Assembly (NCBI GenBank): GCA_039679645.1
Contig: JBDKUO010000062.1
Span: 1-64,000, forward strand
Length of the DNA: 64,000 bases
Direction: 5' to 3'
From: Armatimonadota bacterium
GTDB lineage: Bacteria > Armatimonadota > UBA5829
The notes below the pieces were generated by a model. That model was not told where the DNA came from. It did not search any database and was given only the letters and a program-made list of their open reading frames with translations. The translations under genes were made by a program, and so were the position numbers. This document shows positions 36,038-48,774 of the stretch, one piece after another (within the stretch, counting starts at the first letter, position 1; every line of letters begins with the position of its first letter).

Positions 36038-37051
36038 TCATTTCCTTCTGACTGCACCCGCAATACGGGCAGCGGCTCTCTTTAGTCCGGGAATCATCCC
36101 TGAAGGAGACAAAATAAGGATCAGCGCAAGCATAATCCCAAAGATCATATGCTCAATGCGAGATGTATCTGCTGCGCCCGCTGCCGTGCCGACAAGATTG
36201 ATTATCTCGTGCAGGACAGTCAAAATCACTCCGCCCGCCACGCTGCCCCAGATGCTGCCCATGCCGCCTATCACGACCATCATGACAAGCTGCACGTTCA
36301 TCATCAGACTGAACTCTTCAGGCAACAGCATACCGTCGGACTGGACAAACGCAAAGAGCACACCCGCAATTGCGGCGAGTACGCACGATGCGGTAAACAC
36401 CTTGACCTTGAGGGCGAATGTATTGATTCCAAGCGATGCGGCCGCGGACTCGTCACCCTCGATGGCTCTAAGGCTCCTGCCCTGAGGCGATTCGATAAGC
36501 CCAATCGCCCAGACTATGCATAAAGTCACCATCGCCCATATGAAATAGAACTTGCTGAGACTGTCTTTGACTAAACCGAAAAATGTGATCTGCGGAAGAC
36601 CCAGAATTCCGTCGGCCCCGCCTGTGATCGGGAACTTGGATATCCCCTCACCTATTATTATGCCTATCGCCAGAGTCGCCAGCGCAAGGTGGTTGCCCTT
36701 GAGCCGGAGTATGGAACTGCCTACCAAAAACGATATCAATGCAGTCCCGATGATCCCAGCCAGAATTGCAGACCACATCGGCCAATGCAGCGATTTGATC
36801 AGCACCGCAGGAATGTATCCGCCGAGAGCATAGAAACCGGCATGACCGAGAGATATCTGACCAGTATATCCCATCAGCAGCGTCAGACCGCATACGATGA
36901 TAACATATATCCCGCAAAGTTGAGCCAGATCGAGCAAATATGAGTAGTCACCAGGCAAGAGTCTTGGAAAAACAATAACCGCCAGAGCCATAGCCAGCGG
37001 ACCCATATATATCTTCCAAAGCGGCTTGGGGCGCGGATATTTGCTGATCAT
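36038..37051 (-). CDS. livM: Branched-chain amino acid-type ABC transporter permease LivM
   Basis: The 337-residue membrane protein shows the LivM consensus GQISLGHAGFYALGGY, then LRLKGNHLALATLAIGIIIGE, and the EAA-like loop SPQGRSLRAIEGDESAAASLGIN. About eight helices. It forms the channel with LivH. Its start overlaps the livH stop as ATGA. Confidence 0.95.
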   Translation of the reverse strand: MISKYPRPKPLWKIYMGPLAMALAVIVFPRLLPGDYSYLLDLAQLCGIYVIIVCGLTLLMGYTGQISLGHAGFYALGGYIPAVLIKSLHWPMWSAILAGIIGTALISFLVGSSILRLKGNHLALATLAIGIIIGEGISKFPITGGADGILGLPQITFFGLVKDSLSKFYFIWAMVTLCIVWAIGLIESPQGRSLRAIEGDESAAASLGINTFALKVKVFTASCVLAAIAGVLFAFVQSDGMLLPEEFSLMMNVQLVMMVVIGGMGSIWGSVAGGVILTVLHEIINLVGTAAGAADTSRIEHMIFGIMLALILILSPSGMIPGLKRAAARIAGAVRRK

Positions 37052-37902
37052 CTCGACAGAATCCCCCTCGGCCTGATCAAGAGCAGCACGACAACAATCG
37101 CAAGCGCAAGGATATCTTTATAACCCGAACTGAAGAAGCATATAAACTGCTCCAGCACCCCGATAATCAGCCCGCCAAGCACACATCCTATGGGATTTCC
37201 CAGTCCGCCAAGTATCGCTGCCGAAAAGCCCTTGATGCCGATCATCGTACCGCCGTCGAACTGCATGCTCATGATCGGAGTAATCATCACACCGCCTACC
37301 GCCGCAAGCGCCGCACTGAGGGCAAAAGACATTGCCGAAGCAGTATCCACGCTGATCCCACAGAGCCTTGCACCCTCACTGTTTTCCGCACATGCGCGCA
37401 TGTTCATGCCGAACCGAGTGAACTTGAAAAAAACAACCAGCAAAAGCATACATATGCCGGCCACAGGGATTACCAGCAGCGAGTGGGCATCCACTTGGCC
37501 CGCTCCTATTTTGACTGAGCCATCCATCAGCTTGGGAAGGGTATATGGATCAGTCCCCCATATGAATGAAGCAGTTGACTTGGCCACAATTGAGAGCGCA
37601 ATTGTCAAAATTATATATGTGACCGGCGAAGCGCCCTTGGCTGGGCGCAAGGCAATCAAATATGAGAGCAGGCCTATAAGAGCTGCGACCAAAATCCCCA
37701 ATCCTATAGCATACGGCATTGGGAGTTTGAGAGCGACATGACACCATGCGCTGGTCAGCGCTCCAATCATTACAAACTCGCCCTGAGCAAAGTTGATGAT
37801 CCCGGTCGTTGAGTAGATGACGTTAAACCCGAGCGCTACGAGCGCATAGATGCTGCCTATCACCACCCCGTTTGAAAAAAATAAGCCGATGTAATGTCCC
37901 AT
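37048..37902 (-). CDS. livH: Branched-chain amino acid-type ABC transporter permease LivH
   Basis: A 284-residue permease with the LivH consensus YALVALGFNVIYSTTGIINF and AQGEFVMIGA, the cytoplasmic loop KFTRFGMNMRACAENSEGAR, and FSAAILGGLGNPIGCVLGG. It is the first gene of the operon, reading toward lower coordinates. The 186 bases upstream hold no strong promoter that I can see. Confidence 0.95.
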   Translation of the reverse strand: MGHYIGLFFSNGVVIGSIYALVALGFNVIYSTTGIINFAQGEFVMIGALTSAWCHVALKLPMPYAIGLGILVAALIGLLSYLIALRPAKGASPVTYIILTIALSIVAKSTASFIWGTDPYTLPKLMDGSVKIGAGQVDAHSLLVIPVAGICMLLLVVFFKFTRFGMNMRACAENSEGARLCGISVDTASAMSFALSAALAAVGGVMITPIMSMQFDGGTMIGIKGFSAAILGGLGNPIGCVLGGLIIGVLEQFICFFSSGYKDILALAIVVVLLLIRPRGILSR

Positions 37903-38598: not shown

Positions 38599-41500
38599 TT
38601 ATGGAGCCGGGATTACCAGATAGCACTCCTGCAGCGCCTTAATCCAATAAGCGCGCCAGGGCGCCATCTTATCGGTCGCACCGGAAATTGCACCAGGATT
38701 ACCTACAAGGTAGTATTTGCCTGTGAGAGGATTATCATCGTCCTGCTGCCAACCCCAGGCATAGCTCTTTACGTATGTTCCAGCTTTATTTAACGCCATC
38801 GATGCACTATCAACCGTTTGGACCGTGATCGCTGTCGTATCCCATGTAACTGTCTTCATAAAGGGCTGCCCGATAAGGTTCCAACCCTTATAAAGATGAA
38901 TTGAAACCACATTAGGATCTTTCTCGGTTGAAGCCGCTTGATCCGGAACTTCACCACAAGGCTCTATGGGCGTATCTTCAAACATAGCCCAAAATCCTCT
39001 TCCGGGTGTTGCGCTGGTCGGATCAAACCAGCAGTAGTGGTTCGTATCGTTGCCGTAGCCGAAGTACTTACCGCTCTTCGTCCTATACATCATCCAATCC
39101 ATATCATAGAAGCTCACTACGTTTTTCGGATCGGTATCGTCAGGAATGATCGGCAGAGACACCATGACCATACCCTTCCAGGCATCTTCGACCGGAGTGG
39201 ACTCTCGAGTAACCTGAAGAGAATCAAATGCGCTCTGGCCGGCTGCGTCACGCGCGGTTACCGTGATAACATTCGTGTCTCCCTCGACAATCTCAATTCC
39301 GTCTATCTTCCAGCTTGTGGCGCCGGATATCGTCCCGGATGCGCCGGTTCCCAAATTAGCCCACTTGATTGTCGTAGTATCGTCCGAAGCGGTCCCCGAC
39401 AGATTGATGCTCGCCCCGGTGCGGGTGGTGCTGTCGTCGGAAGTCGGACCGGTTATCGAAATTATTGGCTTCGGATTTGTTACCGTAAGAACAGCAGTAC
39501 CGGTAGCCTTGGTTGTCGAAATGCTTGTACATGTGGCAGTGCATGTTATGTTAATATGCTTGTCACCGTCGGTGGTGTTTGTGGGTGCGGTATAGGTCGG
39601 ATTCTGAGCGCTCACACTCGGACTGAATGTGCCGCCTGCTCCCGAATCGGACCATCGATACTTAAGCAAGTCGCACCTGGAATCTATGGCTGTGATAGCA
39701 CAGACCGTTGTCTTTCCGGGATCAATAGTTGATGGAGTCAGTGTCGGACCCGTTAATGTTACCACATGCCCGCCGGTCACAATCAACTGAGCGGAGGCGC
39801 TGCCGGTAATAGCGGAATCCACTTTGCATACGGCATGACAGGTGATGGTAACGACCTTGTCTGCGCTGCTTGAATTGACAGGAACCGTATAGGTAGTGCT
39901 TGATGCGCTCGGATTTGCGAATGAACCGCCGGCACCTCCATCAGACCATGAGTAGGTTACGTCATGCCCCTGCGAATCGACCGCAGAAGCGCCGACCGTC
40001 GTTGTCGACCCCGATTCAACAGTTGAAGGATTCAAAGATGGCGTTGTAACCACCAGCGCATGAGCATTTTGCGTATAGTAAATAGTCAGAGTCTGCTTCA
40101 CTTCATTGCCAGCGGAATCCTGTGCGGTTATGACTATATTATTGCGGCCCAAAGTAAGAGGCACACCAGCCACCGACCAAGTGCGGACTCCCGTGCATAT
40201 GCCGCTGTCACCGGTAGTGGAGTTGGACCATGTCAGCCCAACCACGATTCCGGTGGTTGTCCCGACAACGGGTATGCTTGAATTATGCCAGAAACCGTCA
40301 AAACCAGCCTCCGGAGAAGTGATAACAACCGTAGTATCTTCGTCCGGAACAAATTTTTGCACGCGGTCGTTGTTCATATCGACGACGTAAACATTGCCGT
40401 CCGCATCCTGCCTGATCCCAGTCGGCTGAACAAATTGGCCGCCACTGGTGCCGTATTCTCCCCACTTGCCGACAAAATTGCCTGTTGAATCAAAAACCTG
40501 AACGCGATTGTTGATATAGTCGGAGACAAACACATCACCGGTCATGCCGACTTCTATACCGGTAGGGTTCATAAACTCACCGTCTCCAATGCCGCCCGAA
40601 CCCCATGGTTTAACCAGGTGATAGGTAACGCTCTGACTTAAGCCGGTATTTGTCACGCCCAACTTGCTGTCGTAAAGCACCGTCGTAAGTGAGCTTGAGG
40701 TTGTTTCGGTAAACATAACAACTCGATTGTTGAGTGTGTCAACCACATAGATATAGCGAGTTCCATCCTTGTCGACGACCGAAACGTCACGCGGCCATGA
40801 GAAATCAGCACCGGTGGTGGTAGATGAAGAAAGTTGAGCAAGATAGTTGCCGTTACTATTAAACTTCTGGATTCGATTGTTGCCACTGTCGGCAACATAT
40901 ACGTTATCGCTTCCATCAACAGCGATGCCATGCGGAGATACAAATTGCCCATTGCCTGTGCCGTATGAACCCCATCCGGCAACAAGCTCCCAATCGGGAC
41001 TGTATTTTTGTATGCGGTTGTTTCTGGTATCGCTGATGTAAAAGTTGCCCAATGAGTCGATTGCAATGCCGCGCGGCGTATCGAACGGATCGGAGCCGAT
41101 GCCGGAAAACGAATCATCATAGGAGCCGGTCGAGCTGTATTTCTGTATTCTGTTATTCAGGCTGTCGGCCAGATATACCGACCCGTCCAGACCTATCGCT
41201 ACGCCTATCGGTTTATCCACATTGCCGCCCCACCAGCGTTCCAGCGCGTAACCTCCGGCTTTCGTCGCAGAAAACACCTCAACGTTCACCTGAGATGCCG
41301 CACTGCCGGATTTTACAGTGACTACACTCGACCCGGAACCCGCTTTGAACAGACCGGTTTGAGAGTCGATTTCACCGGTTGTGGCAGACCAAGTCAACGA
41401 TGAACCCTCGGCAAGGGGCCTGATATTTCCATTGATGTCTATTGGAACCGCCTTAAACTCCTGCGACATTCCCTGAACCAGACCGACCTTACTGGGAAAA

Positions 41501-43608
41501 ACCCGGATATCTTTCAAGGCCGGATAATGTGTGACAGTGAGAGTGTCGGTGGCTGTGTGGCCCGCCAGATCGGTAGCCGTAACTGTTATGACATTAGCGT
41601 TTTCACCATCCGCAAGCGCAAGTCCCGAAGCGCTCCAGGTGGCGTTTTTCTTGCAGTCGCAGGTATAGGTGCCAATGGCTCCCGTACCTGAATTGAACCA
41701 ACTCACACTCACTACACCAAGGTTGTCGGAGGCAGTCCCACCGATATCGATTGTCGATGTTTCCGGCCAGTAGTGGTCCTCGGATGTCGGACTTGTGATA
41801 GTAACGCTCGGGCTTATCGAATCATTAATTATGGTAATAGAAGCAGTAGTTTGATTGCCGTCACTATCGGTCGCAGTAAAGACTATGTTGTTGGTGGTGT
41901 TAGGCTCAATGTTAATATCACCAGTCCACCAGGTCGTCCAATCTCCACCGTCCTGACATAACTGCGCTGGAGTTCCCTGAGTCGTATTCTGCCATGTTAC
42001 CGACGAGACCGCTCTGTTGTCGGATGCTATGCCACAGATGTTAATGGTATTCTGCGATGTGCAGTAGGTCGGCTCAGTGGTAGGGCTGGTTATTTGCAGC
42101 TCAGGAGGAACCGTCGCTGGGGAACCCGCATAAACCTTCAGACAGTTGTTAATCTTTTTATCAGAATAGTCTACCCAGTAGTCTTCCCAGTTGTTACCAT
42201 CCGGACTTATATAACTCTCACCCGGATTGGATGTGGCTGATGAAGCATGACGATTATCATCCGCCAGTTCGACCGGAACAGGAAATGTATAATCCGGAGT
42301 CGTCAGTTTTACCACCGCTGAAAACTTCTGGCCCTTGGTAACGCCGACCGGTGTATCAAGCTGTATGGTCGTATATCCCGGATTGGCGACCGTGCCGGTT
42401 TGTTTAAGCGCATAGCCGCCGGAACTAACAGGACCGGATGTAGGATCCTTGTAGATATAAATCTCATACGGCGAGTTCGGCTCGGCAGTATACCAGCCGA
42501 CCGCTGTCAGCGGCTGATTATCGGATGCGGTAAACACATTTGCAAACCACGCTGTCTCATTATTGTAGCCAAAACGGGACACCCAGCCAAGAGGATCATA
42601 CTGGTAGATTTTAGAATAGTTGTCCGTTGAATCAGCCGTAAAAACACAGCTCGCAGCCCACATCATCAAATTGGCATCATAATAAGAGATATAAAAATAG
42701 CCGTGGTCTCCCCAGGAGGCTGCCCAACTGTTCTTTACGATAAATGCGCCATCGCCGGGGGGTGTTATGGTGAAGTTTGACTTTGAATAATTGTCATCCC
42801 AACCAACTATACACACCCCATGATTGGTGCCCACCGCCATATCCATATAATATGCATAAGTTGCCGGGTTGTAGAAACCATAACCACTATAGGTATAAAT
42901 AGCAAATGATACAGCCACCGCGCCATAAGTCATTATTGCCTGTTTGATATTGTCATTATCCAGAGAGGATTCACGCGGCGGGATCTGAATATATTCCTGA
43001 ACATGCTTCTCTGCTGTGTAAGATGTGTGACTTGTAGAAACACAAGAATTCTCATCATAGGGGTCGTCTGATTCACTCACGGGGCCGGCCCACCTTAGAA
43101 GATAGGCTGCAGCCATATCATAATTACCGCCACTGCAGCAATCATAGTCTTCTCCGGTAAAACCGGACAAGTTTTTCATATTATTCTCTGAAAAATCCGT
43201 GTTCTCAGCCGACAGAAGACTCGATTCCAAAGAACCTATGGCCGCAAACGCCCAGCAACTGCCGCAACCGCCTTGGTTTTTGACAGGAGTTACCTTGTTG
43301 TGATCGCGAAGATCATATGAGGTGGGAAGAGTGGCCATCAGCCGATTTCCGGTAAGATTCAGGTGTTTGCCTTTTAGGTAGGACGTGTCACAAAAAGGCG
43401 GTATCAATCCTGTGCCGTGCTCGCCCGTCTCTTGAAGCAATGACGAGACTTTGCTTTCACCCTTCAGGTATTTTGCATACTCCGGATTTATCGGCGCCCG
43501 CTCAAGCTGTAATTTATCGGCAAAGCCTGCAACCGACAGAAAAAGCGCTGCAGTAAAAATTAACAATGTAGTAGATATGCTTCTTACGAATGACCTGCTT
43601 ACCTTCAT
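38599..43608 (-). CDS. Giant secreted papain-like (C1A) protease with lectin-like, Ig-like and NHL domains
   Basis: The 1669-residue protein has a signal peptide (STTLLIFTAALFLSVAGFA), a propeptide and a C1A peptidase domain (about 93-320). The catalytic set is present: Gln112, Cys118 in GGCGSCWAF, His263 in GTNHGVCIVGWDD and Asn293 in VKNSWAASWG. A lectin-like beta domain follows (about 330-490), then Ig-like domains, six NHL propeller blades near 793-1089 (ADSGNNRIQKF and similar), then two long Ig-like repeats and another. The last 200 residues (WKGMVMVSLPIIPDDTDPKN) resemble C-terminal modules of large surface proteins. GGTGGAG precedes the ATG at 43608. A sigma-70 promoter lies at 43744-43773. 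It likely degrades protein at the cell surface. Confidence 0.88.
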   Translation of the reverse strand: MKVSRSFVRSISTTLLIFTAALFLSVAGFADKLQLERAPINPEYAKYLKGESKVSSLLQETGEHGTGLIPPFCDTSYLKGKHLNLTGNRLMATLPTSYDLRDHNKVTPVKNQGGCGSCWAFAAIGSLESSLLSAENTDFSENNMKNLSGFTGEDYDCCSGGNYDMAAAYLLRWAGPVSESDDPYDENSCVSTSHTSYTAEKHVQEYIQIPPRESSLDNDNIKQAIMTYGAVAVSFAIYTYSGYGFYNPATYAYYMDMAVGTNHGVCIVGWDDNYSKSNFTITPPGDGAFIVKNSWAASWGDHGYFYISYYDANLMMWAASCVFTADSTDNYSKIYQYDPLGWVSRFGYNNETAWFANVFTASDNQPLTAVGWYTAEPNSPYEIYIYKDPTSGPVSSGGYALKQTGTVANPGYTTIQLDTPVGVTKGQKFSAVVKLTTPDYTFPVPVELADDNRHASSATSNPGESYISPDGNNWEDYWVDYSDKKINNCLKVYAGSPATVPPELQITSPTTEPTYCTSQNTINICGIASDNRAVSSVTWQNTTQGTPAQLCQDGGDWTTWWTGDINIEPNTTNNIVFTATDSDGNQTTASITIINDSISPSVTITSPTSEDHYWPETSTIDIGGTASDNLGVVSVSWFNSGTGAIGTYTCDCKKNATWSASGLALADGENANVITVTATDLAGHTATDTLTVTHYPALKDIRVFPSKVGLVQGMSQEFKAVPIDINGNIRPLAEGSSLTWSATTGEIDSQTGLFKAGSGSSVVTVKSGSAASQVNVEVFSATKAGGYALERWWGGNVDKPIGVAIGLDGSVYLADSLNNRIQKYSSTGSYDDSFSGIGSDPFDTPRGIAIDSLGNFYISDTRNNRIQKYSPDWELVAGWGSYGTGNGQFVSPHGIAVDGSDNVYVADSGNNRIQKFNSNGNYLAQLSSSTTTGADFSWPRDVSVVDKDGTRYIYVVDTLNNRVVMFTETTSSSLTTVLYDSKLGVTNTGLSQSVTYHLVKPWGSGGIGDGEFMNPTGIEVGMTGDVFVSDYINNRVQVFDSTGNFVGKWGEYGTSGGQFVQPTGIRQDADGNVYVVDMNNDRVQKFVPDEDTTVVITSPEAGFDGFWHNSSIPVVGTTTGIVVGLTWSNSTTGDSGICTGVRTWSVAGVPLTLGRNNIVITAQDSAGNEVKQTLTIYYTQNAHALVVTTPSLNPSTVESGSTTTVGASAVDSQGHDVTYSWSDGGAGGSFANPSASSTTYTVPVNSSSADKVVTITCHAVCKVDSAITGSASAQLIVTGGHVVTLTGPTLTPSTIDPGKTTVCAITAIDSRCDLLKYRWSDSGAGGTFSPSVSAQNPTYTAPTNTTDGDKHINITCTATCTSISTTKATGTAVLTVTNPKPIISITGPTSDDSTTRTGASINLSGTASDDTTTIKWANLGTGASGTISGATSWKIDGIEIVEGDTNVITVTARDAAGQSAFDSLQVTRESTPVEDAWKGMVMVSLPIIPDDTDPKNVVSFYDMDWMMYRTKSGKYFGYGNDTNHYCWFDPTSATPGRGFWAMFEDTPIEPCGEVPDQAASTEKDPNVVSIHLYKGWNLIGQPFMKTVTWDTTAITVQTVDSASMALNKAGTYVKSYAWGWQQDDDNPLTGKYYLVGNPGAISGATDKMAPWRAYWIKALQECYLVIPAP

Positions 43609-43967: not shown

Positions 43968-44600
43968 TCAGTTCAGGGTATCGAGGAAACCACTGACCTC
44001 ACGGAACAGGTAATCATACGCGGCATCCATCTTCGATTCGGCAATAGCAATATCATTAAACGGGTTTGGATGCTGCACATCAAGCTCCACATAAAGCTGT
44101 GTCAGATCGCTGAAAAACGGCTCAAACTTAAGCTCATGCACCCCATCTTGATGAAGCACGACACGCAAACCTACGCCCTGCCTTCCGGGACCGAGAAGAT
44201 CGAGGTTATCTTTGATTGAACTGAGCGCGCTGCTCTCCAACAGTTCAGCAGCGTTGCGACCACCCTCGACTGGCAGAAATGCCGTCAACTTGATGCCGAA
44301 TGTCATAAACTGGGGAATCTTGAGCCTCTCCTGGGCCATCTTGAAAAGGTCCAGCGACTTCTCTTTGGATGACTGGAAGTAGTCTACATTGTCATTGACC
44401 TGCATGCGCGTGGTCTGAATGAAAAAATCTCCACTTGGGTTTGCCATGCGAGCGCCATCAGGCAAATGCTGAAGAGTCTGGAACGGATAGCGTTCAGTAA
44501 TATCCGCATAGATGTGGTTTACCTGCTGAGGCTGCAGTTGATATGGCGGATAGACAATTCCGGCGGTCATACGCCGACAAGTGAGAAGTTGTGTTTTCAT
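43968..44600 (-). CDS. Hypothetical protein, about 210 residues
   Basis: I do not recognise the family with confidence. The 210-residue cytoplasmic protein has no signal peptide or cysteine motif. The opening after residue 15 (IVYPPYQLQPQQVNHIYADI) and the closing SKMDAAYDYLFREVSGFLD recall small sporadically distributed proteins (TIGR04255-like), which begin with a Pro-Pro motif and end in a helical segment; this is a weak impression. GGAGAG lies before the ATG at 44600. It is on the same strand as the sigma factor fusion upstream, 167 bases away, but no promoter was identified between them. Confidence 0.6.
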   Translation of the reverse strand: MKTQLLTCRRMTAGIVYPPYQLQPQQVNHIYADITERYPFQTLQHLPDGARMANPSGDFFIQTTRMQVNDNVDYFQSSKEKSLDLFKMAQERLKIPQFMTFGIKLTAFLPVEGGRNAAELLESSALSSIKDNLDLLGPGRQGVGLRVVLHQDGVHELKFEPFFSDLTQLYVELDVQHPNPFNDIAIAESKMDAAYDYLFREVSGFLDTLN

Positions 44601-44767: not shown

Positions 44768-46018
44768 TTAGCCCTCCGGCACATAAGGCGGATGCCAGAG
44801 CTTGCGGATATCATCTAAATCCAGTTTGACCTGTGCACATCGTTCTAGACCAAATGCAAAACTGACCACGCCGAAACGCGATGGGTCAAGCCCGGCTTTG
44901 ATGAGCCATTCATCTTGCGCAATTCCTCCGCCTGCTATACCCATCCACTTATTACGCCATAGTACTTCATAGTTTTGAACATCACCAACGAATAAATAGC
45001 TCTGTGTTGAGCCTGGCCTGAATTCTGCTCCGTGAACAAGTTTGGCTGCCACTCGTCGCATCGTTTCATCGAGCTTCCGAGTATTCATGCCTTCCTCAGC
45101 CCACAGAACTTCTGCCTGATGAAAAACCTCAAGTCTTGTCTCTGATTCAATATCTGCCGGTCTGAAGACACGACCTACTGTAATCAGTTTGCATGGCCCA
45201 CCGCCGTTATTGATCCAGAAATTGGCCAACTGTGATGTCAGCTCAGGCCGCAATATTCTATGCTCATCGACGATATTTTGCTGAATATCAAGCTCCAACA
45301 TTAATTCTTCGCGTTCGCACACCTCGTCAAGCGTCACTTCTTCAAAATCCGGAAAACACGAACGAAATGCCTCCCATAACTTGCGAATTGGATGACCTTC
45401 TATTTCCAATGGCCGCGGCAATTCCAGGAGCTTGCGGATTCGCTCCGGAAAATCCTTCGGCAGGGCATGTGTTTTGAGTTCATCGTTTACCATTTGGACC
45501 ATCCTCTCTTTGAGCCGGGTCCGCGAAGAGTGCAGGCGGTTATTGACTGTCGATACCGGCACTTCAAGGAACTCGGCAACGTCTTTTTGGCTGTAACCGT
45601 TGATATAGAACAGGGTGGTCACTATCCTCTCGCTCTCAGACAGGGTCGAGATCGCCTTAAGCACCATCTCACGCATCTCATGTGCCTCGGCAAGCGCTGC
45701 CGGGCCAGGATCGTTGGAAGCGACCTCGATCACAGACTCCAGAGGCACTGTTTGGTGTCTTTTGCGCTTGATGCGGTCGCAGTGCTTAAAGATGATCTTC
45801 CTGAACCAGCCGGGAAAAGCATCAGGCTCTCGAAGCGCGTCCAGATCACGATACGCCTGTATGAACGCTTCCTGCGCTGCATCTTCCGCCAGATGAAAGT
45901 CACCCGTCACGGAATACGCATACGCAAGCGCCATGTCCTGAAAACGCCCGACTATCATCCCGAACGCATCCAGGTCACCGCTCCTTGCCCGATCTACCAG
46001 CGACTTCAGTTCGTCCAT
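44768..46018 (-). CDS. ECF sigma factor fused to a PheS-like class II aminoacyl-tRNA synthetase domain
   Basis: The 416-residue protein has two parts. Residues 1-180 are an ECF sigma factor: region 2 (AYSVTGDFHLAEDAAQEAF, then AFPGWFRKII) and region 4 (LSESERIVTTLFYINGYSQ, then VSTVNNRLHSSRTRL). Residues about 205-412 match the catalytic core of PheRS alpha: HPIRKLWEAF, motif 2 (GRVFRPADI ... RLEVFHQAEVLW, 282-306), GIAGGG (360-365) and motif 3 (FAFGLERCAQ, then DDIRKLW, 387-408). The FPFTEPS substrate loop of true PheS is replaced (STQSYLFVGDVQNYEV). So it may bind ATP or an amino acid but is unlikely to charge tRNA. No anti-sigma gene is adjacent. Inference: the C-domain senses a ligand for the sigma factor. 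Confidence 0.85.
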   Translation of the reverse strand: MDELKSLVDRARSGDLDAFGMIVGRFQDMALAYAYSVTGDFHLAEDAAQEAFIQAYRDLDALREPDAFPGWFRKIIFKHCDRIKRKRHQTVPLESVIEVASNDPGPAALAEAHEMREMVLKAISTLSESERIVTTLFYINGYSQKDVAEFLEVPVSTVNNRLHSSRTRLKERMVQMVNDELKTHALPKDFPERIRKLLELPRPLEIEGHPIRKLWEAFRSCFPDFEEVTLDEVCEREELMLELDIQQNIVDEHRILRPELTSQLANFWINNGGGPCKLITVGRVFRPADIESETRLEVFHQAEVLWAEEGMNTRKLDETMRRVAAKLVHGAEFRPGSTQSYLFVGDVQNYEVLWRNKWMGIAGGGIAQDEWLIKAGLDPSRFGVVSFAFGLERCAQVKLDLDDIRKLWHPPYVPEG

Positions 46019-46144
46019 GTCCGCTCCTGTTCTGTTTTGGAAGGCCCTCCATATTATAAGACCCAGTTATGCGATGATATCTTTAATGCAAAACCGCCAC
46101 CTGAACTCGTCAGGTGGCGGGAAAAAGCAGGCTGTGGAAACGAT

Positions 46145-47767
46145 CTATCCGAATTTCAAAGCTAATCGGCCATCTTTGGGCAGTATCAGAACAAATTGGT
46201 CCTGCCGCCTCTCAAAGCGTCCTGATGAACATTGAACCTTGTAATCAAACCCTTCGTGCTTGTAGGCCAAAGAGTCGGCTGTCACGTCGACCAAGTCAAT
46301 CGACTTATCAGCGCTCCAGCTCATCTCCAGCGCCCAGTCAGAACCATTGTTCTCAATCTCCAGACAATCAGGCTTACAGAAAATTTCAAAGTTACCACAA
46401 TCAGCCAGAGGCCATGAAATGTGCAGGTCAGTATCTGATGACTCACTAACTGTCGGGGATGACCCAATAATCGGCTCATACTCACTGTTGCCTGCCAGAT
46501 GTACAAGCCTGATCCCCGCAAGACGATCCTTAGTGCTCCAGTTGTAGCCGTCCATAACCGGCAGCGCATCGTATATACACGCTTCGCTCTTGCAGGTATC
46601 CTGCAAATATCTCTCCGGGTAGCGCTGGTCGAAGAGGTGAATATCGCGTATTCTCAGTTTGCCGTCTTCCCAGAAAAGGTTGGTGCGGTAGAACCGGCTG
46701 TCATACCATACACTCTTACGGCCCTCGCCCTGCCAATCAGTTAAGGCTGTGACAGCCGTCGGTGGAGTAACATCGAACTTGGACTTGAACCACTTGCCTG
46801 AATCGACAAGCCTCTCGATGCGCACGATACCCTCATCGCGCAGCCTTGCAAGCTCTTCAAACTGATAGGTAAGTCCTTTTTGCATACTCGGCCAGCCGAA
46901 TGAGTTTTCTTGACCCACCTGAGCATAGCCAAAGGCAAGACATGGCGATTTGAAATTGACATCAAAGAACCAGTCGACCCATTCCTTGCATCCACCGCCA
47001 CCTTCATATACAGGCTCCAGCGTCACCACGCCCTGCCTCTCCTCGCCGAGGCTGTAGTCATATTGATAGATGGGGTCGCTGCCCAGCATCCTGAAGACCG
47101 GGACGGATATCTGATGCGACTTGTCCTGAGCCGGGACTATAGCATTAGCCCTGCTGGGATAATAGCCCTGATTCCAGTAGCCTCCCCAAAGGGTATAGCC
47201 GTCTGTTCCGCACTGGTCCTTGCAGTTGCAGGCGGCTGTGATTCCGTACTTATCTGCCAGGTAGCCAAGTGTGTAAGAATCCAGAACCCATGATCCCACC
47301 GACTTGGGGTAATATCCGAAAGCCTTGCGAAAGTCTTCCATGAAAACGTCAATTGTCTTCTCGCGCTCGGCTGGGCTGTAGCCTACCATCATACCCACAT
47401 CTGAAAACCAATCCCAAGCCCATCTGCCTCGCCACTTAATGCCGGCTTTCTCTACAAGCGGCTGGACCATCTCCAGCCAGAGCCCTACTTCGTATCGCGA
47501 GTCTAGCTTCTTAAGCAGGTCCGTGAACTTACTATCTATAAGCGCATCATACTGCGCCAGGAATGTGGTGGGCAGGTCTAGCCTGCTTGTAAGCTCAATA
47601 GCTTTCGCCACAGGCTCTACCAGGTCTATAGGCTCGCGCGGCTCAAGGCCTCGAATGAAGAAAATTGGATTTACAATGCGTGGTGATGTCAAGACTTCCT
47701 CCAGAAATTGTCCTTGGCAATGAAGGCTTTGCCAACTGTGCGGTCTAAGAATAGAATGATAGTCCAT
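46145..47767 (-). CDS. Large hydrolase-like protein, polysaccharide deacetylase/GH-like, unassigned
   Basis: The 540-residue protein lacks a signal peptide. The first half has a barrel-like flow (IFFIRGLEPREPIDLVEPVA, FLAQYDALIDSKF, YEVGLWLEMVQPL, KSVGSWVLDSYTLGYLADKY) that recalls NodB-type or GH57/38-type barrels searching for glycans; the second half is beta-rich (RIRDIHLFDQRYPERYL, then LHISWPLADCGNFEIFCKP). It reminds me of DUF3863-type proteins, with no firm match. A GGGG run near residue 253 is odd. The ribosome site is weak. It sits just upstream of the sigma factor fusion on the same strand, 126 bases away, so it could be an unlinked gene or a target of it. Confidence 0.5.
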   Translation of the reverse strand: MDYHSILRPHSWQSLHCQGQFLEEVLTSPRIVNPIFFIRGLEPREPIDLVEPVAKAIELTSRLDLPTTFLAQYDALIDSKFTDLLKKLDSRYEVGLWLEMVQPLVEKAGIKWRGRWAWDWFSDVGMMVGYSPAEREKTIDVFMEDFRKAFGYYPKSVGSWVLDSYTLGYLADKYGITAACNCKDQCGTDGYTLWGGYWNQGYYPSRANAIVPAQDKSHQISVPVFRMLGSDPIYQYDYSLGEERQGVVTLEPVYEGGGGCKEWVDWFFDVNFKSPCLAFGYAQVGQENSFGWPSMQKGLTYQFEELARLRDEGIVRIERLVDSGKWFKSKFDVTPPTAVTALTDWQGEGRKSVWYDSRFYRTNLFWEDGKLRIRDIHLFDQRYPERYLQDTCKSEACIYDALPVMDGYNWSTKDRLAGIRLVHLAGNSEYEPIIGSSPTVSESSDTDLHISWPLADCGNFEIFCKPDCLEIENNGSDWALEMSWSADKSIDLVDVTADSLAYKHEGFDYKVQCSSGRFERRQDQFVLILPKDGRLALKFG

Positions 47768-47973: not shown

Positions 47974-48774
47974 ATGAAGATTTATATATTGACTGATTTG
48001 GAGGGAGCAGGCGGGGTTATCAACCGCAGCCATGTATTTTCCGACCAGCCCGGATATCCGCAGGCGCGGCACTGGCTGACTATGGACGTCAACGCAGCCG
48101 TCGAAGGCGCTATAGCAGGCGGAGCGACGGAAATACTCGTGCTCGACGGTCACGGCGGCAACGGCGCATGTAATTTTTTATACGATGAACTCCACCCGGG
48201 CGCGCAATATATCCAGGGTGCGCCATACACACAATTCCCGCAGGGGCTCGACGACAGTTTCGACGGTTTCTTTTTTGTAGGAGCACACGCCATGGCTGGT
48301 ACGCCGGGTGCAATCCTCGAACATACGATGTCGTCCATGTCCTGGGTCGAGATGCGCATAAACGGAGCGCCTACAGGTGAGATCGGCCTCTTTGCCGCTG
48401 CTGCGGGTATGCGAGGTGTGCCGTTTGTGATGGTAAGCGGCGATGACAAGGCCTGCCTTGAAGCTGCATCGATCAGCCCGGATGTAGAATGCGCAGTCGT
48501 CAAGGAAGGCATAAGCCGCCACTGCGCAAAGCTGTTGCCGCCTGCAAAAGTGCGAGAGTTAATTAAAGAGAAAGCCAGGCTTGGAACGGCCAAGATCAAA
48601 TCGATTCAACCGGTCAAGATAGATGGACCCGTCGAGATTCAAATCAGGTATTTCCGAAACGATCTCGTTGAAGCAGTCCACGAGCGCGAAGGGGTCCGCA
48701 AGGTTGACCCGCAGTCGGTTGTCTTTTCGGGTAAGGACTTGCTGGATGCATGGAAAAAAGTTATGGGCGGATAG
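47974..48774 (+). CDS. D-aminopeptidase DppA-like (M55 family)
   Basis: The 266-residue cytoplasmic protein fits M55: TDLEGAGGV (Asp8 and Glu10), DGHGGN (His60), GAHAMAGT (His105) and EHTMSS (His117), the metal and acid residues of the DppA decamer that cleaves D-Ala-D-Ala and D-amino acid peptides. AGGAGA precedes the ATG at 47974. Family B hairpins lie right upstream. No dpp transporter is adjacent. The fit to the family is close, but D-specificity is inferred from known members. Confidence 0.92.
   Translation: MKIYILTDLEGAGGVINRSHVFSDQPGYPQARHWLTMDVNAAVEGAIAGGATEILVLDGHGGNGACNFLYDELHPGAQYIQGAPYTQFPQGLDDSFDGFFFVGAHAMAGTPGAILEHTMSSMSWVEMRINGAPTGEIGLFAAAAGMRGVPFVMVSGDDKACLEAASISPDVECAVVKEGISRHCAKLLPPAKVRELIKEKARLGTAKIKSIQPVKIDGPVEIQIRYFRNDLVEAVHEREGVRKVDPQSVVFSGKDLLDAWKKVMGG

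Follow-up and report, generated by a model that had tools for sequence, protein, structure and literature searches.

Can the activity of a bacterial sigma factor be set by an amino acid that it binds itself? The question is raised by a gene in a 64,000-nucleotide stretch of DNA from an Armatimonadota bacterium (the window), in which an ECF sigma factor is followed, in the same frame, by a domain resembling the catalytic core of the PheS subunit of phenylalanyl-tRNA synthetase (Table 1). Two points must be settled: i) whether the two parts form one genuine protein; and ii) what a synthetase core could do at the end of a sigma factor.

Architecture and distribution of the fusion

The gene is a single minus-strand open reading frame at 44768-46018, with the ATG at 46016-46018 and the stop codon at 44768-44770. 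The plus strand is not open across this interval. Three Pfam families match above their curated cut-offs: Sigma70_r2 (PF04542, residues 23-86, 1.3e-9), Sigma70_r4_2 (PF08281, residues 117-169, 5.1e-11), and tRNA-synt_2d (PF01409, residues 208-409, 5.8e-24). With regions 2 and 4 present and region 3 absent by Pfam, the domain layout is that of the ECF factors (sigma70 group 4), and the NCBIfam model TIGR02937 identifies the protein as an ECF sigma factor with 79.8 bits against a cut-off of 42.9. The reading frame and the Pfam matches thus confirm the first-pass annotation, which had described a complete ECF sigma factor joined in one frame to a class II synthetase core; the motifs it quoted are all found in the protein.

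Table 1. Features of the sigma-synthetase fusion gene and its upstream region (window coordinates; residues numbered in the fusion protein unless marked PheS)
Feature	Position	Strand	Basis
Whole fusion gene, 416 aa, including stop codon	44768..46018	-	Same frame in G003, G004, G005, L023
ECF sigma part, residues 1-175, regions 2 and 4	45494..46018	-	PF04542 and PF08281 above cut-off; TIGR02937
Linker, residues 176-205, with conserved FPERI..LL helix	45404..45493	-	100% identical in G004; alignment
PheS-type class II core, residues 206-416	44771..45403	-	PF01409 5.8e-24; model; Foldseek PheS matches
LRPELT, residues 256-261, HisRS-like LRxE/D..T loop at PheS His178-Thr179-Ser180	45236..45253	-	Alignment, hisS profile match
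Motif 2 Arg286	45161..45163	-	Same in 16/16 members and PheS
FHQAE, residues 299-303	45110..45124	-	HQ.E same in 16/16 members
YLFV, residues 341-344, at Phe-side-chain loop FPFV	44987..44998	-	Alignment; PMC3275996
Ser386 at PheS Ala314 (Ala294 in E. coli), pocket-size residue	44861..44863	-	Alignment
Motif 3 GLER, residues 390-393	44840..44851	-	G.[ED]R kept in 16/16 members
Conserved upstream block TTAAAGA-N15-TGGGTCTTATAATATGGAGGGCCTTCCAAA, probable own promoter	46036..46086	-	Alignable in all four same-family genomes; unique in window

In sequence comparison the C-domain aligns to solved PheS and, more weakly, to SepRS. An AlphaFold2 model of the C-domain alone (pLDDT 85, pTM 0.86) retrieved PheS alpha chains from the PDB as the top Foldseek matches (E 7e-18, query TM about 0.77-0.78), followed by SepRS. 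The model of the whole protein (pLDDT 77, pTM 0.54), in which confidence is low on the packing of the two domains, also retrieved PheS alpha chains first (E 2e-16), then SepRS and PylRS. The C-domain is thus predicted to have the PheS fold. The lack of a structural match to PheS had been named in advance as an observation that would speak against the annotation; instead, the best matches are all PheS alpha chains.

The other such observation was a sequencing error joining two genes. In a search of 60 relatives, a homologue of 416-419 aa was found in three genomes of the same family, with identities of 80% (G004), 63% (G005), and 63% (G003). The same single-frame fusion is present on a Planctomycetia contig at 55% identity, and genomes from Acidobacteriota and from Gemmatimonadota/Latescibacterota contain full-length versions that are about 30% identical. 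Between the window and G004, the codons of linker residues 176-205 show only synonymous differences. A joining error is ruled out by these relatives: with the same single frame in independent genomes across several phyla, the chance that the fusion is an artefact of assembly or sequencing is practically nil.

The C-domain, used as a query against the genome collection, matched seven further genomes, each with an in-frame ECF domain ahead of it. These are labelled Planctomycetia, Bryobacterales, Solibacteraceae, Vicinamibacteria, Gemmatimonadetes/Gemmatimonadaceae, and Latescibacterota; since L024, L026, and L028 fall in one phylum of the search tool, the spread is counted as at least four groups. 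In all, the domain order is shared by sixteen relatives, 15 intact and one broken, that come from at least four bacterial groups. A fusion copy at L075:1495-2739 (minus strand) is decayed or mis-sequenced; its linker region contains in-frame stops as well as frame shifts. With a C-domain profile, the fusion was detected in 4/201 genomes from the window's phylum, in 1/200 genomes from the order of the Bryobacterales genome, and in 3/64, 7/193, and 1/17 genomes of other sets. The distribution is rare and patchy. No sigma-less member of the C-domain clade was found by the searches or by the profile over the same genome sets.

Active site and evolution of the C-domain

In PheRS the roles of Q183, Q218, R204, and R321 are known, and the motif 2 Arg, the HQ pair, and the motif 3 Arg serve amino acid and ATP binding. 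The active site was compared in an alignment of 16 fusion members with 15 canonical PheS proteins, and Thermus numbering is used for it here. The motif 2 Arg (R204), H217, Q218, E220, and the motif 3 Arg are identical in 16/16 members. Other positions differ from PheS or vary. The loop at residues 178-180 reads L-R-x-[DE]-[LF]-T, with L replaced by M once; H178 is replaced by Glu or Asp, and S180 by Thr, in every member. The hisS profile matches the LRPELT stretch, in keeping with the resemblance of this loop to HisRS. The Gln183 position is always Leu or Met. The F258/F260 aromatic pair is Y/F in the window, F/F in G005, and elsewhere mostly Y with M, V, or L. At the Ala314 position, 13 of the 16 members have Gly, the window and G004 have Ser, and G003 has His. 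The motif 2 neighbors and ATP-site residues E206 and H212 vary among members.

The phenylalanine-binding loop had been described as altered at first pass. It is, but mildly (Thermus F258-P-F260-V261 to Y-L-F-V), and stronger changes lie elsewhere: Ala314 to Ser, His178 to Glu, and Gln183 to Leu. Phe258 and Phe260 of PheS have their role in the Phe-side-chain loop, and Gly in place of E. coli PheS Ala294, the equivalent of Ala314, admits para-substituted Phe analogues (PMC3275996). With constant core residues and variable pocket residues, the C-domain seems equipped for binding an amino acid and ATP; its side-chain preference looks changed relative to PheS and seems to vary among members.

The fusion C-domains form one clade apart from PheS (support 100/100). 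A single clade of the group A and group B sigma domains, where group B is the Acidobacteriota/Gemmatimonadota-Latescibacterota branch of the fusion genes, was not recovered, and the AU test did not reject it either (p 0.20). Identity of the window sigma domain is 60% with sister sigma factors from the window's phylum and 55% with the Planctomycetia fusion. Against G004, dN/dS is 0.06 and 0.12 for the two domains, which indicates purifying selection on both; the identity is 94% for the sigma part and 66% for the C-domain. Within the latter, residues 246-350 (44969-45283), the ligand half, are 55% identical, far below the flanking parts. Synonymous changes at identical residues are also more frequent there (36/56 versus 80/260 elsewhere; Fisher p 6e-6, with boundaries picked post hoc). 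The pattern suggests that this stretch was either replaced by recombination or is a hot spot where changes accumulate locally.

Sister ECF sigma factors in the window's phylum (L007, L008, L009, L010, L011, L012, L013, and L016) have related sigma parts but markedly differing C-terminal domains, with ankyrin repeats in L009 and L011, WD40 in the more distant L016, and domains without a Pfam match in others. They look like a lineage with exchangeable input domains, and sisters with other C-domains are what a swappable input module would predict.

Promoters, neighborhood and models of control

In group B, the motif GTCAC-N16-TGTC[CT] stands 17-48 bases ahead of the start codon in 11/11 genes, some of whose sequences are near-copies, and it occurred zero times in 500 shuffles of each upstream sequence. 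Its -35 element and spacing match the ECF41 promoter, TGTCACA-N16-CGTC (PMC3426412). The strict form GTCACRNT-N13-TGTCYT has ten sites in eight group-B genomes, eight of them at the fusion gene itself; this form was derived from the same genes, so that finding them is not independent evidence, but its near-absence elsewhere is. The other two sites overlap reading frames, and the end of one of them coincides with the start codon of an ABC-transporter gene. No site of the reversed strict form, used as a control, was found in the same eight genomes. Because all 11 genes lie behind an ECF41-like promoter that is almost absent elsewhere in the genomes, transcription of the group-B fusion gene is very probably driven by its own product.

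The group-B/ECF41-type promoter is absent from the upstream region of the window's fusion gene. The block found there (as a search pattern, TTAAAGA-N15-TGGGTCTTA) shows few changes among the four same-family genomes, and the DNA further upstream is alignable only between the window and G004. The block includes TATAAT, which is usable by a housekeeping sigma factor, and may be a promoter of either the ECF or the TATAAT type. Further sites of the window's own motif were rejected within the part of the genome scanned: at up to two mismatches, GGTCTTATAATATGG occurs 9 times and its reversed control 11 times, and three near-exact sites (L087-L089) are without the TTAAAGA element. A different motif, approximately AAC[CT]T-N13-14-[GC]AT or GGCTC, is shared, by eye, upstream of the sister sigma genes L007, L009, L012, L095, and L096. 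It stands about 35-50 bases ahead of the start codon and is probably the ECF promoter of those sigma factors themselves.

The absence of an adjacent anti-sigma factor, already remarked on at first pass, holds among the neighbors scanned, which include no anti-sigma gene, PheT, or other translation gene. A conserved partner or operon was sought across 16 loci and rejected: no neighbor is conserved family-wide, and some genes are common to close relatives only. In the window, the flanking genes at 46145-47767 (minus strand, 540 aa) and 43968-44600 (minus strand, 210 aa) have no Pfam or NCBIfam match; the 540 aa protein is 87% identical and in the same position in G004. Within 10 kb of the fusion lie a D-aminopeptidase gene (Peptidase_M55, 47974-48774, plus strand), with M55 also there in G004, and two BPD_transp_2 permease genes of the branched-chain amino acid type (36041-37902, minus strand). 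The gene at 38599-43608 (minus strand) encodes a 1669 aa protein, probably exported, with papain-type peptidase, lectin-like, Glucodextran_B, and NHL-repeat domains.

We favor, with a confidence a little above even, an ECF sigma factor, self-contained and autoregulated, that is controlled in cis through a putative amino-acid-sensing C-domain descended from the PheS catalytic core. The C-domain would bind an amino acid together with ATP, or as the adenylate. The ligand is probably aromatic or larger than Phe, since the Ala314 gate is changed. Binding may alter the packing of the C-domain on sigma2/sigma4, or the dimer state, and this would release or block RNA polymerase binding; positive autoregulation would then amplify the signal. 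The protein would report the supply of the bound amino acid, its C-domain replacing an anti-sigma factor. As the fusion is conserved in at least four groups, an amino acid probably sets directly which genes are read.

In-cis control by a ligand-binding domain, as first proposed, fits the conserved fusion, the lone gene, its own promoter, the retained core residues, and the sister C-domains. The signal had been put down to an amino acid, an aminoacyl-adenylate, or something related to tRNA. The first two stand, the best candidate being an amino acid with ATP or the adenylate; tRNA is the weakest part of that proposal because the PheS N-terminal tRNA-binding coiled coil and the PheT partner are absent. 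Three findings count against the sensor reading: the window branch is without the group-B promoter, its upstream block contains TATAAT, and the pTM of the two-domain model is low. Furthermore, if the fusion gene were its own sole target, there would be little for a sensor to control.

In a fairly unlikely alternative, the C-domain is still an enzyme: it would form an aminoacyl-adenylate and transfer the amino acid onto a protein, a small molecule, or tRNA, and the sigma factor would mainly drive its own gene, and with it the enzyme. EpmA and other synthetase paralogues make an adenylate and transfer the amino acid. The motif 2 and motif 3 Arg and the HQ pair are kept in all members, unlike in HisZ, and the strict promoter sites at gene starts in the eight group-B genomes mark the fusion gene only, except for the one ABC-transporter start. 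However, no substrate or carrier gene is conserved nearby, the side-chain pocket and the ATP-site residues H212 and E206 are variable, and an enzyme would have no obvious gain from permanent linkage to a sigma factor. Catalysis could also serve the signal itself: the C-domain would activate an amino acid with ATP, and the adenylate, or an aminoacylated sigma factor or RNA polymerase, would be what is read. This is unlikely; were it so, the sigma factor would chemically read amino-acid supply through the first step of translation.

The fast divergence of the C-domain relative to the sigma part, along with the poor conservation of the motif 2 neighbors E206 and H212, would suit a relic that binds no ligand and serves as a scaffold, either for dimerisation of the sigma factor or for the docking of another protein. 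The buried catalytic residues are nevertheless the same in 16/16 members at overall identities down to about 30%, and a scaffold is unlikely. The HisRS-like domain of Gcn2 senses uncharged tRNA, and with this precedent and its synthetase ancestry the C-domain might be a tRNA sensor, switching the sigma factor when uncharged tRNA docks. Most tRNA contacts in PheRS are made by the PheS N-terminal coiled coil and the PheT subunit. Both are missing here, and the best-kept residues are those of the amino-acid/ATP site, so that a tRNA sensor is most improbable.

Comparison with known systems

Among ECF factors, a close parallel to the proposed amino-acid-sensing sigma factor is ECF41, in which a fused C-terminal domain likewise exerts control without an anti-sigma factor (PMC3426412) and whose promoter the group-B motif resembles. 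The ECF41 C-domain is SnoaL-like, whereas that of the fusion is a PheS core by PF01409 and Foldseek, and the window branch has another promoter block. Genes for the ECF41 partners (carboxymuconolactone decarboxylase, oxidoreductase, and epimerase) were not found among the neighbors scanned. In CorE, the sigma factor's own C-terminal extension senses a small ligand, again without an anti-sigma factor (PMC8999054). The C-terminal extension is the common feature; in CorE-type ECF238 it is a short Cys-rich metal site, and in the fusion a whole synthetase core. ECF42 (TPR) and ECF57 (WD40) have large soluble C-terminal extensions, as does the fusion, in which Pfam detects no TPR or WD40.

Among synthetases, PheS shares the fold and the core residues, including the motif 2 and motif 3 Arg, but in the fusion the N-terminus is a sigma factor rather than a coiled-coil arm; there is no tRNA-binding arm and no PheT among the neighbors scanned. 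A disguised canonical PheS is ruled out by a score of 72.3 bits on the pheS equivalog, below the cut-off of 237.45, and by the separate canonical PheS of the window's genome, which is on contig C9. HisZ senses His and is without adenylation activity (PMC9437257). Like the fusion, it is a synthetase core serving regulation outside translation, but HisZ regulates an enzyme, whereas the fusion keeps the core residues and its predicted output is transcription; the hisZ_biosyn_reg model gives 12.7 bits on the fusion against a cut-off of 271.65. SrmL (NF051887), a PheS-related mystery ligase that is non-translational and for which no paper was found in the searchable literature, has a model that matches 8/8 members scanned, with 50.3 bits in the window and 80.3 bits in L025 against a cut-off of 300. 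On the features tested, the fusion falls outside ECF41, ECF42, ECF57, PheS, HisZ, and SrmL.

ECF factors with regulatory extensions make up at least 26 groups, in the description of which a synthetase is not mentioned (PMC8999054). No ECF factor with a synthetase core was found in the searchable literature, and the main ECF classification may already list it as an unstudied group. ECF factors with fused sensors are thus known, and it is a sensor of the aminoacyl-tRNA-synthetase-derived type that is unexpected. If the favored reading is correct, one partnerless soluble protein joins amino-acid recognition to promoter choice. In one branch the promoter is compact and nearly unique, which would make the system directly testable and a possible amino-acid biosensor part. 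A role in transcription would then be added to the known list of synthetase paralogues.
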